DNA of 64,000 nt from a virus. Positions 13,660 to 19,042 of the stretch are shown in pieces. The DNA lies in the IMG/VR virus record IMGVR_UViG_3300006793_000026, positions 1-64,000 of that record, one strand, 5' to 3'. The position numbers and the translations under genes are program-made. Numbering within the stretch: the first letter of the stretch is position 1; each line of letters starts with the position of its first letter. A model generated the notes under the pieces. That model was not told where the DNA came from. It was given only the letters and a program-made list of their open reading frames with translations, and did no database searches.

Positions 13660-14373
13660 ATGGCGTTACCTAAGCTAAACAGTACACTACTGTATAAGAC
13701 CACAGTACCTTCGACAGGTGAGACTGTTGAGTTCAGGCCCTTCCTTGTTGGTGAGGAGAAGCTCTTTCTTATTGCGTCACAGTCTATGGCACCGCGAGTG
13801 TTGTATGATGTAATCAAGAGAGTTGTATCACAATGTGTTACGACCGAAGGCTTTGATGTGACCCAACTGAAGGGCTACGACCTCGACTACATGTTTCTAC
13901 AGTTACGTGCTAAATCTGTAGGAGAACAAGAAACGCTCAATCTGTCATGCGGCTCGTGTGATACCAAGAACGTATACGACATAGATTTCGAGAATGGCGT
14001 ATACGTATCCAAAGGACCTGAGAGTAACAAGGTCGATCTTGGTGGTGGTATCACGCTCGGGCTTACTGAGCCAGGCATCGACGATGTTATTGAGATCCAA
14101 GAGGTACTCGAAGATCAGGCTGAACTGGCCTTCGCAATGCTAGACTTGGTGATCGATAAGGTATACACGGTCGATGAGGTGATGGTATTCCATGATGAGA
14201 CTCTCGAAGAGCGTCAGTCATTTATTCAGTCTATGACAGCTGATCAGATGCAATTGATATTGGCATTCATTCAAGAGATACCTCAAGTGTCTATGGACGT
14301 TTCGTTTGTATGTGGTAACTGCGGTAAGCACAACCAGACGGTACTCAAAGGTGTATCTGATTTTTTCGCATAG
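13660..14373 (+). CDS. 26: gp26-like baseplate hub assembly protein (T4_baseplate family)
   Basis: A 237-residue member of the T4 base plate protein family: MALPKLNSTLLYKTTVPSTG, VEFRPFLVGEEKLFLIA, GYDLDYMFLQLRAKSVGE, a CGSCDTKN and a later CGNCGKHN pair of Cys-x2-Cys knuckles, ending KGVSDFFA. In T4 this group assists hub assembly. The last codons are GAT TTT TTC GCA TAG, containing the classical slippery heptamer T TTT TTC, and the gp51-like frame begins in -1 right there. This matches the G/GT tail assembly chaperone layout upstream of a tape measure gene, which lies 3 kb downstream. Cys knuckles suggest zinc binding. Confidence 0.8.
   Translation: MALPKLNSTLLYKTTVPSTGETVEFRPFLVGEEKLFLIASQSMAPRVLYDVIKRVVSQCVTTEGFDVTQLKGYDLDYMFLQLRAKSVGEQETLNLSCGSCDTKNVYDIDFENGVYVSKGPESNKVDLGGGITLGLTEPGIDDVIEIQEVLEDQAELAFAMLDLVIDKVYTVDEVMVFHDETLEERQSFIQSMTADQMQLILAFIQEIPQVSMDVSFVCGNCGKHNQTVLKGVSDFFA
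14347..14367 (+). promoter_or_regulatory. Putative -1 ribosomal frameshift signal (AAAGGTG ... T TTT TTC)
   Basis: In the gp26 frame the sequence reads GAT TTT TTC GCA TAG. T TTT TTC (14361-14367) is an X XXY YYZ heptamer two codons before the stop. AAAGGTG at 14347-14353, 7 nt upstream, is a Shine-Dalgarno-like element at the distance that stimulates dnaX frameshifting. Slippage by -1 gives CGC ATA GGC CTG and the gp51-like frame. Confidence 0.65.
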
Positions 14374-14555
14374 GCCTGGGATATAACAATCTCGAGAACT
14401 ACTACAAGACCAACTTCGTTATGAAGCACAAGATGAATTGGTCGTTCCAAGAGATTGAGTCTCAGGCACCATGGGAACGCGAAGTCTATATCCAGCTTTA
14501 TATCGATGATTTGAAGAAGGAAGAAGAGCGTATGAAAGAATCTGGACAGATCTAA
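14361..14555 (+). CDS. 51: gp51-like ORF, probably expressed by -1 frameshift from gp26
   Basis: The -1 frame is open from just after TGA 14358-14360 to TAA 14553-14555. It encodes NLENYYKTNFVMKHKMNWSF, QEIESQAPWEREVYIQLYID and a charged helical end. This resembles the short proteins following gp26 in T4-like phages (NYY-x-TNF...PWER...). There is no ATG, GTG or TTG before the conserved block; the first ATG (14421) would cut off its NYYKTNF part. Frameshifting from gp26 would yield a fused protein of about 300 residues, parallel to lambda gpGT. Independent start at 14421 or at a non-standard codon cannot be excluded. Confidence 0.6.
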   Translation, partial: FFRIGLGYNNLENYYKTNFVMKHKMNWSFQEIESQAPWEREVYIQLYIDDLKKEEERMKESGQI

Positions 14556-14560
14556 AGAGA

Positions 14561-14585
14561 AAGGCCCCTTGCGGGGCCTTTTTTA
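14561..14585. terminator. Bidirectional intrinsic terminator between gp51-like and gp48
   Basis: AAGGCCCC-TTGC-GGGGCCTT is a perfect 8-bp stem followed by TTTT on the plus strand; on the minus strand it is followed by TCTCTTT. It separates the convergent plus-strand gp51-like ORF from the minus-strand gp48 gene, whose stop codon lies just to its right. Confidence 0.85.
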
Positions 14586-15758
14586 TTATACCTCGTTACC
14601 TTCGTACGCCAATCGTATATCTTGGCGGTTGAGGGTTTCGATCTCCTTGAACTGTAAGGTCATGTTCGTAGCAGGGAATCCACCATCCGGACGTTGAGCC
14701 ATTGAACGGTTTGGGTCAAAGTCAGTTGCGACACCGGCCAGGATACACTCCTTGTAGAAGAGACCCGATCCAGCAAGTGAGACCATTTCACCGTCTTCGT
14801 TGACACGCCATGCGGATAGACGGAATGTGTTCGGGTGGATGAAGGCTACACTGACGTCAGCGATTTCACCAGCGGTCGTGCCAGGTACCAGAAGGTCCGT
14901 GTTCGACTCGGTAGTTTCGGTCACAGCACCGGTGATTTCGTAGTCAGACGGAAATGCATCCTTGGCCTTGATCGATACAGGATACATGACAGTACGGAAG
15001 AAGCGGATGATGGCCGAGACTTGTTGTCCTTCAGCTGCAGAAGTAGGTACGAAGTTAAACGCGAATTCGTGCGCACGTAGGTTCACCTTCTGGAACAGTG
15101 AGATCGCATGAGGATCTTTGGTAATACCAACAGTGGCTGATACAGTGTTCGACACCTTCTTCACGACAGGTATATCCTTGGACAGACCGATGGCTGTTGC
15201 GATAGTACCAATGCTCGGTGTGTTACCAGATCTCATATCAGATACGGTCGATGCCATCTGAGTCATACCTTGATCAGCCGCAGCTGTTAGGCCAGACATG
15301 ATACCACCTTGAGAATTCTGAATGGCCGAAGCAGCTGCACGACCCATGACACCAAGTTCGGTTTCGTCAGTCTGAATTGAATCGTTTTGTGACATGGTAG
15401 GCATATACAACCAGATGGTCTTGGTAGTGATACCGGTCTCTTGTTCACGAATGACTTCGACACCCCGCTCAAGTCCAAGTGTATTGGCCGCAGTCAGGGT
15501 CTTGGTCTCCTGGGCTTCAATCTTCAGCCAGTATGCAGTACGATCACCCCGTGGGTTATCAGGAGAACGATCGAGTGGGTAGTACAGTGACTCCTCACGA
15601 CCGGGCATACTTGCACCGGTTCGGGCATTCGGATTCAGGAGACCATTGATACGGTTCACTCCGGTGTTGATCTCACCTATGGCACGATTCTTACCATCCT
15701 GGATTGCACCCTGAAGCTTATTGCCCAGACGTTCTTTTGCTTTACTGAAGAGTCCCAT
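14586..15758 (-). CDS. 48: gp48 baseplate tail-tube cap protein
   Basis: A 390-residue protein on the minus strand. The N-terminus is helical and basic (MGLFSKAKERLGNKLQGAIQ); the C-terminal half has the tail-tube-like fold typical of gp48/gp54: HPNTFRLSAWRV, LFYKECILAGVATDFDPN, and the family ending NMTLQFKEIETLNRQDI. In T4, gp48 caps the baseplate and, with gp54, seeds tail tube polymerisation. It is the only clear minus-strand gene in the window. A TATAAATA box on the minus strand (plus coordinates 15790-15797) should drive it. Confidence 0.8.
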   Translation of the reverse strand: MGLFSKAKERLGNKLQGAIQDGKNRAIGEINTGVNRINGLLNPNARTGASMPGREESLYYPLDRSPDNPRGDRTAYWLKIEAQETKTLTAANTLGLERGVEVIREQETGITTKTIWLYMPTMSQNDSIQTDETELGVMGRAAASAIQNSQGGIMSGLTAAADQGMTQMASTVSDMRSGNTPSIGTIATAIGLSKDIPVVKKVSNTVSATVGITKDPHAISLFQKVNLRAHEFAFNFVPTSAAEGQQVSAIIRFFRTVMYPVSIKAKDAFPSDYEITGAVTETTESNTDLLVPGTTAGEIADVSVAFIHPNTFRLSAWRVNEDGEMVSLAGSGLFYKECILAGVATDFDPNRSMAQRPDGGFPATNMTLQFKEIETLNRQDIRLAYEGNEV

Positions 15759-16680: not shown

Positions 16681-17348
16681 CCCTTGACGTAAGAAGATTT
16701 ATGCATACGCTGAGTAAGCACGGCGGACCTCAGTATACTAACAGATTCCAGGTACGACTACCGGTCATTAACCTGCCCTTGATCGAAAAGGCATTGGGTT
16801 ATGAAGATGCCAATGGATCGGAGCTCAATGTACTGTGTAAGAGTGTGCAAGTACCAGGCTTTGATCTTGAGATGAAGGCCGAACGGAAACATGGGTCACG
16901 CGCACCGCTCGCGCACGCAACCGGATTCCAGATATCAGAATCACGGTTAGTCTTTACGGATACAGCGAACGGATTAATACGTACGTACTTTGAGAATTGG
17001 TTTGATAGTATCGTTGATGAGCATGGTCGGGTAGCGTACTACAGTGATTCGGTCAAGGATATACATGTCGACACGTTAGACAAAGAAGGGAATGTCACAA
17101 TGACAACTCGCCTGATGGATTGTTTCCCGAAGACAAGAGTATCGTATGAACTGTCGAACGCAAACTCGGACACACCACTTGAATTAACCGTGACACTACA
17201 GGTCGCAAACTACGAAATGAAAACCGGTACCGAAGCCAAGGTCAATAAAGCCATAGGGAAGATCACCAAGGCCAATCGTATCATTCGAGACATCACCGAC
17301 ATAGACATCGCAGGCTCGGTCGCAAATAGTGTAAGGAGATTATTCTAA
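16677..17348 (+). CDS. 54: gp54-like baseplate tail-tube initiator
   Basis: A 223-residue protein with the tail-tube fold pattern: GGPQYTNRFQVRLP, then FENWFDSIVDEHGRVAYYSD, VDTLDKEGNVT and CFPKTRVSYELSNANSDTPL, ending in a beta strand LTVTLQVANYE. T4 gp54 sits on the baseplate and starts polymerisation of tube protein gp19. Position beside the tape measure gene fits. gp48 and gp19 share this fold, so the exact name rests on context. It overlaps the upstream and downstream genes by ATGA and one base. Confidence 0.7.
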   Translation: MTLDVRRFMHTLSKHGGPQYTNRFQVRLPVINLPLIEKALGYEDANGSELNVLCKSVQVPGFDLEMKAERKHGSRAPLAHATGFQISESRLVFTDTANGLIRTYFENWFDSIVDEHGRVAYYSDSVKDIHVDTLDKEGNVTMTTRLMDCFPKTRVSYELSNANSDTPLELTVTLQVANYEMKTGTEAKVNKAIGKITKANRIIRDITDIDIAGSVANSVRRLF

Positions 17349-19042
17349 TGGCAGACCTTCAACAGGTTATTGATGTACTGAATATACACAATAACGAAAG
17401 AAGAGCAACCGAAGAACTACAGATCGGGCGTGACATCGATAATAATATCATTATGCGCGAAACCAATACGCTGCTCAATAGTCAACTTGAAGCGCTCAAT
17501 GCGGTCAATGAGTCTATTATAAGGTTAGGTGCGGTACTGGTTGGTACGGCGGACTCCATGTCAAAGATGAATGTAGCTCTTGCGAAGGGTAATCAGCTTG
17601 ATAAGCGTGGTAATAGCGAAACAGACGAAGGTCTTGAGAGTATAACAAAAGCTCAGAACAAATCGGGTACGTTTCTTGGTAGACTTTTCAATCTCGAGAA
17701 AAAACGCGAACGGGACGCGCAACTCGTGAGAGAGTCACGTGATACAGGGACGGTGAAACCAAAGGTTATAGGGGATAAGAAGGATAGCGAAGATCGCAAT
17801 ACGCCTGGTGGTTTCATAAGGAAGGTACTGGGGATGATCTCAGGTCTTGTGCTGGGGGGCATTGCGGCTGTCCTCGGTTCAGAGCTCTGGCTAGCGCTGA
17901 AAGGGATTACGGATGGGGCTGTGTTCGAAGGGATCCGTGATAAGATAGCGATGGTCGGGCGTGGTATTACAACGTTCGTGTCTCTGTTCGCGAATGCAGG
18001 AAAGATGATAGCGGCGGTCGGCGCAGGCTTCAGCCTCGGCATATCCAAGGTAGGAAAGGTATTCCCGATCGCTGGGCGAGCGCTGCGCATGGTCGCGGGT
18101 GGTATTAAAACGTTCGGGTCTCTGTTAGCGAAGGTAGGAAAGGTAATACCGATCGCTGGTAAGTTCCTGCGTGTGATCCCCGGACTCGGCCAGGCGATAA
18201 CTCTCATCACGTCCGTATTCAGCGGGATCTACGCGGGTATAAGGACGTTCATGGAAACCGGTGATATCGTAGAGGCTCTGAAGGCCGGGCTCTCAGCAGC
18301 GATCAGTACGTTCATTAATGGGTTCGTTGATCTGGCCGGATTCATATTCGGTATGGACCCGGAACAGACCGCTGCCATAAAGACCCGGGTCGAAGAGATC
18401 GTATCCGCCACTGTGGGTTTCGTCGTTGATTTCTTACAGGGGACATATGATATCGTAAAGAGTCTGGTAGGGAAGACGTTGGATCTCTTTACTGAATCAC
18501 AGATCGAAGCGGATCGTGCAATGGCTGAGGCCGAAGAGGCCCGGGTACGGCAGCGTATGCATAACCTTGCGCGAATACGTCGCGATCGCCGTACAGAGGC
18601 CGAACAGGCAGAGCTCGAATCATTGCAAGAAGCGTTACCTGAGGCCACAAGACGTGCTGAGATCGCAAGGCTCCGTGGTCGTATGGAAGACTCTGGTTAT
18701 GATATGAGTTCTGATCAGTATACGATGAATGAGTTGATGTCTATGACGGACGAGGAGCTGGCCGCAGCTGGTCTTATGGAAGCGTATCAGACCCGGCAGG
18801 GGAATACGGCTTATAGGATTAAGAAGCGTGGTGAGCTGCGTGTGGCCAATCAGCCGACGGATGTTGAAGCTGCTAATGATAATGCGGAAGCAATGCGACT
18901 GGCTGCTGCGGCTGCTGGATTGGGTGGATTGGGTGGTGGCAATGTGGCGATCTCTGAGAATAATACGAACATACAGTCTAATATGAGTCTTAACCAGCAG
19001 GGTGGTATGAGCTCTACGAACGATCAGATAGGACCTGCGTAA
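17348..19042 (+). CDS. 29: Tail tape measure protein (gp29-like)
   Basis: A 564-residue protein; T4 gp29 has 590. Residues 1-150 are helical and coiled-coil-like; residues about 155-370 hold a long run of Gly/Ala/Val-rich hydrophobic segments, typical of tape measures that later insert in the host membrane; residues about 380-450 are a charged coiled coil (EAEEARVRQRMHNLARIRRD); the end is Asn/Gln/Ser-rich. An internal duplication is visible in the DNA: 17961-18005 resembles 18099-18143, and 18047-18075 matches 18131-18159 at 27 of 29. Helix length should set tail length. It lies between gp54 and gp53. Confidence 0.75.
   Translation: MADLQQVIDVLNIHNNERRATEELQIGRDIDNNIIMRETNTLLNSQLEALNAVNESIIRLGAVLVGTADSMSKMNVALAKGNQLDKRGNSETDEGLESITKAQNKSGTFLGRLFNLEKKRERDAQLVRESRDTGTVKPKVIGDKKDSEDRNTPGGFIRKVLGMISGLVLGGIAAVLGSELWLALKGITDGAVFEGIRDKIAMVGRGITTFVSLFANAGKMIAAVGAGFSLGISKVGKVFPIAGRALRMVAGGIKTFGSLLAKVGKVIPIAGKFLRVIPGLGQAITLITSVFSGIYAGIRTFMETGDIVEALKAGLSAAISTFINGFVDLAGFIFGMDPEQTAAIKTRVEEIVSATVGFVVDFLQGTYDIVKSLVGKTLDLFTESQIEADRAMAEAEEARVRQRMHNLARIRRDRRTEAEQAELESLQEALPEATRRAEIARLRGRMEDSGYDMSSDQYTMNELMSMTDEELAAAGLMEAYQTRQGNTAYRIKKRGELRVANQPTDVEAANDNAEAMRLAAAAAGLGGLGGGNVAISENNTNIQSNMSLNQQGGMSSTNDQIGPA

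Follow-up and report, generated by a model that had tools for sequence, protein, structure and literature searches.

In the window (the whole 64,000-nt stretch of DNA analysed, positions 1 to 64,000 of IMG/VR virus record IMGVR_UViG_3300006793_000026, which is 68,955 bases long), a gp26-like gene of a marine T4-like virus very probably yields both a short and a long tail assembly chaperone, the long form arising through a programmed −1 ribosomal frameshift at the heptamer T_TTT_TTC. A fusion of gp26 and gp51 by −1 frameshifting had been proposed in an earlier, sequence-only reading of this DNA, and the proposal is now strongly supported by the −1 stop that abuts the heptamer, by the lack of a start codon for the gp51 part and by an in-register TTTTTT at every locus (79/79) of a selection-free scan of relatives.

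A single candidate slippery site leads into the gp51 frame

The 3′ end of the gp26-like open reading frame (ORF) reads GTA TCT GAT TTT TTC GCA TAG (Table 1). Because a TGA in the −1 frame directly precedes the heptamer, this frame cannot be entered from upstream, and no ATG, GTG or TTG was found in the window's −1 frame ahead of the ATG at 14421, which falls where the conserved block LENYYKTNF ends. The sequence-only reading had reported the GAT TTT TTC GCA TAG end, the heptamer, AAAGGTG 7 nt upstream and the missing start, all of which hold on re-reading. The predicted fusion has 298 amino acids (236 + 62), with SDFF joined to RIGLGYNN at the junction; the junction peptide predicted for the frameshift product is of the SDFFRIGLGYNN-type, and the S-PM2 version contains LQSFFRISMFYNN.

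Profile searches matched the gp26 part to PF12322 and phrog_150 and the −1 part to phrog_634, annotated 'baseplate hub assembly catalyst' (E ~1e-21). The −1 product also weakly matches the C-terminal end of phrog_150, the profile of which runs past the junction. Across 62 non-overlapping window ORFs, 19 shifty heptamers lie in frame, three of them T_TTT_TTN, and only the one in gp26 is followed by 30 or more open codons in the −1 frame.

Table 1 Features of the gp26/gp51 region in the window.
Feature	Coordinates	Strand	Evidence
gp26-like ORF, 237 aa; short 0-frame product, TAC-N / gpG-like	13660..14373	+	PF12322 T4_baseplate 9e-47; phrog_150 5e-48; T4 gp26 alignment probability 99.6
AAAGGTG, Shine-Dalgarno-like, 7 nt 5′ of heptamer; doubtful stimulator in the window	14347..14353	+	Sequence; no better than synonymous shuffles
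TGA stop of the −1 frame, adjoining the heptamer	14358..14360	+	Sequence
Slippery heptamer T_TTT_TTC, X_XXY_YYZ register	14361..14367	+	Sequence; TTTTTT in register at 79/79 + 23/24 junctions
−1 frame ORF, gp51 domain (FFRIGLGYNN...SGQI); stop at 14553-14555	14361..14555	+	phrog_634 1.2e-21; frame shared with relatives; coding-type substitutions
0-frame TAG stop, 3 nt past the heptamer	14371..14373	+	Sequence
Predicted stem, 9-bp outer helix (14374-14382 with 14459-14467); candidate shift stimulator	14374..14467	+	−36.7 kcal/mol, z −4.55; structure excess at same position in relatives
First ATG in the −1 frame, too late for the whole gp51 domain	14421..14423	+	Sequence
Hairpin AAAGGCCCC-TTGC-GGGGCCTTT then T; likely terminator just past the −1 stop	14557..14584	+	−20 kcal/mol, z −4.3

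The heptamer and frame relation are conserved

Using tblastn, we located gp26 in 579 phage records and gp51 in 649. IMG/VR and three cyanophages supplied 58 non-identical junctions, and in each of them the heptamer stands in register (TTTTTTC at 52, TTTTTTT at 4, TTTTTTA at 2). In the selection-free scan, loci were picked solely by the N-terminal motif [YF]RP[FW]LVKE and the gp51 profile was built without the FF residues; the gp51 domain lay in the −1 frame, together with the in-register TTTTTT, at each of the 79 distinct IMG/VR loci. We also inspected 24 junctions case by case, drawn from Kyanoviridae, Straboviridae, Pootjesviridae and unplaced phages, covering cyanophages, pelagiphages, KVP40- and Aeh1-like phages and phages of Rhizobium, Caulobacter, Acidovorax and Stenotrophomonas, and TTTTTT was in register at 23. 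Across relatives the run comprises 6–8 T. The T-rich heptamer is thus conserved in the junction alignment over T4-like phages for which the sequence-only reading had called. Relatives with their own gp51 start and no slippery site, which that reading had named as counterevidence, are represented among the 24 by one phage: Pseudomonas phage Cygsa01 (L103:1440-1680) has ATTTTC and a TAATG overlap in place of the heptamer, and coupled initiation may replace frameshifting there.

Codon usage at the site is strongly biased. All 77 sites have TTT as the first Phe codon of the heptamer; in the rest of these genes, TTT accounts for 551 of 873 Phe codons (nominal log10 P −20.8, relatedness ignored). 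In the GC-rich phages ACP17, phiM9 and DLP_6, gp26 contains one TTT, the slippery codon, versus 11–13 TTC. Were selection to act on the gp26 protein alone, TTC could stand at this position as well.

At 49 of 52 non-redundant loci, the −1 frame holds no start upstream of the heptamer. Between the window and a related locus (L023), the stretch ahead of the first ATG differs at 10 synonymous versus 6 non-synonymous codons when read in the −1 frame, and at 0 versus 14 when read in the 0 frame. By this sequence comparison, substitutions are of the coding type in the −1 frame even before the first possible start.

RNA structure is positioned downstream of the heptamer

The window RNA is predicted to form a long, stable stem beginning 6 nt past the heptamer (Table 1), a stronger stimulator candidate that the sequence-only reading had overlooked. 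Among 52 non-redundant loci, the 100 nt right after the heptamer (+7) gave a mean z of −1.92, with half of the loci below −2, while six other offsets at the same loci gave means of −0.2 to −0.5. The excess persisted against synonymous permutation (mean −1.87; control stretches of gp26, −0.77; P = 3e-5, a value that, like all our RNA-structure P values, ignores shared ancestry). At 54 further, independently chosen loci scanned in 80-nt windows, mean z reached its extreme of −1.48 at +13, or 6 nt beyond the heptamer, where 39% of the loci were below −2.

About half of the loci lack significant downstream structure, and the stems vary between clades in sequence and topology. A single conserved stem with covariation was rejected, since comparison of the window with L023 gave few compensatory pairs and many broken ones. 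What is conserved is the position of the stem, not one structure, and the stem probably stimulates the shift. The sequence-only reading had instead singled out AAAGGTG as a Shine-Dalgarno-like stimulator. The pairing strength of this motif in the window does not exceed that of synonymous shuffles, whereas in relatives such pairing is slightly stronger than in shuffles on average (−5.9 versus −4.9).

The two products resemble T4 gp26 and gp51

With hhalign, T4 gp26 (208 aa) aligned with the unshifted part (probability 99.6, E = 3e-24) up to its end at ...GLKEFFELL, where the shift site lies, and T4 gp51 (249 aa) aligned over 244 columns with the fusion (E = 2e-17, probability 98.9). The two T4 proteins also aligned with each other (probability 97.2, E = 4e-11), the N-terminal 200 residues of T4 gp51 being gp26-like. 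As T4 gp26 corresponds to the unshifted product and T4 gp51 to the fusion, T4 has a separate gene for each form, short and long. Homology of the short and long products, as in the T4 gp26/gp51 family, is thus indicated by hhalign, PF12322, phrog_150 and phrog_634.

By analogy with gpG/gpGT, we infer that gp26 and gp51 are short and long tail assembly chaperones. As in genes of that class, a first ORF overlaps a second that lies in the −1 frame and lacks a start of its own, and a slippery heptamer is conserved in register near the end of the first. The functional parallel to lambda G/GT that the sequence-only reading had drawn gains strong support from the alignment of T4 gp26 with the short form and of T4 gp51 with the fusion.

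The AlphaFold2 model of gp26 (pLDDT 91.5) strongly matched models of T4-like gp26. Its match to the HK97 chaperone structure 2ob9 was weak (E = 1.2); 2ob9 and 3fgx had the top probability (0.54), both with E >1. GTP cyclohydrolases, which had the best Foldseek E-values against the PDB, were rejected (TM 0.15, rmsd near 19). A link to contractile injection systems through DUF6760 (PF20546) was dropped, as the match reached 16.6 bits against a cut-off of 27 and occurred in 1 of 18 members; our literature search found no mention of the family.

Alternative routes to gp51

Most annotations list distinct gp51 genes, and an ATG overlaps the gp26 stop in V09, RL2RES, Cr30, Mendera, phiM9, Atu_ph04, phiM12 and Cygsa01, as would be expected if gp51 were a separate protein made by reinitiation or from a non-standard start (ATA, CTG) after gp26 termination. 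However, the earliest start in the window comes only where the conserved block finishes. Of 52 non-redundant loci, 29 are free of start codons all the way from the upstream stop to +30, and starts occur at scattered positions. Separate initiation would also leave unexplained both the invariant TTTTTT and the gp26-like N terminus of T4 gp51, and we consider it very unlikely. Coupled initiation could nevertheless operate alongside frameshifting in several phages of alphaproteobacteria and KVP40-like phages with TGATG or TAATG, giving free gp51 as a third product. At L101, L104, L107, L114, L116, L117 and L121, the heptamer is kept together with an ATG overlapping the gp26 stop (TGATG or TAATG).

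Still less probable is slippage of RNA polymerase on the T run, which would produce mRNAs with one extra U and an identical fusion peptide. A run of 6–8 T could invite it, but efficient transcriptional slippage in bacteria usually needs more than six T. The XXXYYYZ pattern is preserved by the base that follows the run, and the RNA structure excess lies about 6 nt further on, which is in line with slippage of ribosomes. Errors of sequencing or assembly, or decay of the gene, have to be considered for an assembled record of an uncultured virus, but are refuted by the data. The T6 run is identical in three other IMG/VR contigs (99.7% identical over 5–8.7 kb), which makes an assembly slip unlikely, and the frame relation is common to hundreds of relatives, including isolates. 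Programmed −1 ribosomal frameshifting is the reading that we retain.

Genomic surroundings

In the window, gp26/51 is followed by a terminator-like hairpin and then by a convergent gp48/54-like gene (14586-15758, minus strand). The sequence-only reading had placed the pair upstream of the tape measure gene. This fits HTVC008M, in which the tape measure gene lies two genes downstream of gp26/51; in the window, however, it does not hold directly, as the hairpin and the convergent gene intervene.

Two further observations concern this region. The hairpin is GC-strong, is followed by T and may terminate both convergent genes; it is absent from the output of a consensus terminator scan. Between the tail-tube-like and gp53-like genes, a 564-aa ORF (17348-19042) is a tape measure candidate by position, and profile searches gave no tape measure family match for it.

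Discussion

We infer that expression would proceed as follows. The majority of ribosomes would complete gp26 and release the 237-aa short chaperone. A minority would pause at T_TTT_TTC, probably aided by the stem 6 nt downstream, where the two Phe tRNAs could re-pair one base back, on TTT TTT; these ribosomes would then read the −1 frame to 14555, producing the 298-aa protein with its C-terminal gp51 domain. Both forms would aid assembly (tape measure, hub, start of the tube) as lambda gpG and gpGT do, with the extra domain on the minority form only. T4 and close relatives devote one gene to each form, 26 to the short and 51 to the long.

The sequence-only reading had regarded the arrangement as new for this group, a claim that does not stand. 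Vladimirov, Gautam and Davidson 2022 (Virology 566:9-15), as cited in PMC10885494 and PMC12846349, identified the chaperone genes of T4-like phages. With reference to that work, the PRFect paper (PMC10885494) describes T4-like phages with one short and one long fused tail assembly chaperone (TAC) gene and no frameshifting, and the Adele paper (PMC12846349) states that TAC-N genes of T4-like phages contain poly-T −1 signals; judging from our T4 alignments, the genes concerned would be 26 and 51. A 2016 review (PMC5009743) had held G/GT-type shifting to be conserved 'except T4'. The principle was thus already published, going by these two citing papers, and the present analysis may add how widely the site is conserved and where the RNA structure is positioned downstream of it. 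For the wider T4 group, we give roughly even chances to a broader scheme in which the frameshift site has a position-conserved, sequence-variable RNA stimulator, a stem beginning about 6 nt past the heptamer, and lineages have switched among frameshifting, two paralogous genes (T4) and possibly a stop–start overlap (Cygsa01).

Frameshifting would explain why one gene has long been taken for two, both assigned to the baseplate. Sullivan 2010 (PMC3037559) described gp51 of cyanophages and vibriophages as lacking the first ~200 residues. This short 'gp51', read there as truncated, is the same −1 frame domain, and the missing residues would be absent because gp26 supplies them through the frameshift; in marine T4-like phages it would be the C-terminal part of a gp26 fusion and not a truncated gene. 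Many database records annotate gp26 and gp51 apart or omit gp51, and probably hundreds need a joined gp26–gp51 feature. In NC_021530 (S-CAM8), KF156338 (S-MbCM7) and OX359470 (ORM_20), the gp51 domain is unannotated or begun at an internal codon.

Compared with lambda gpG, the first domain in the window is larger, and the likeness is one of gene layout; the lambda slippery site also differs from the T run. As predicted for the window, lambda gpG/gpGT (Levin 1993; Xu 2004) pair a short protein with an infrequent −1 extended form, made at a slippery site close to where the first ORF ends. The genes for gpG/gpGT and their relatives often lie upstream of the tape measure gene, whereas the window pair has no adjacent one. 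TAC genes of Vandenendeviridae and Andersonviridae (PMC12846349) share with the window a T-rich slippery run at the TAC-N end and an uninterrupted −1 frame, but belong to another phage group and use a GTTTTT motif. T4 gp26 and gp51 are likewise homologous short and long proteins, but T4 encodes them in two divergent genes, whereas the window would obtain both from one gene and a frameshift.
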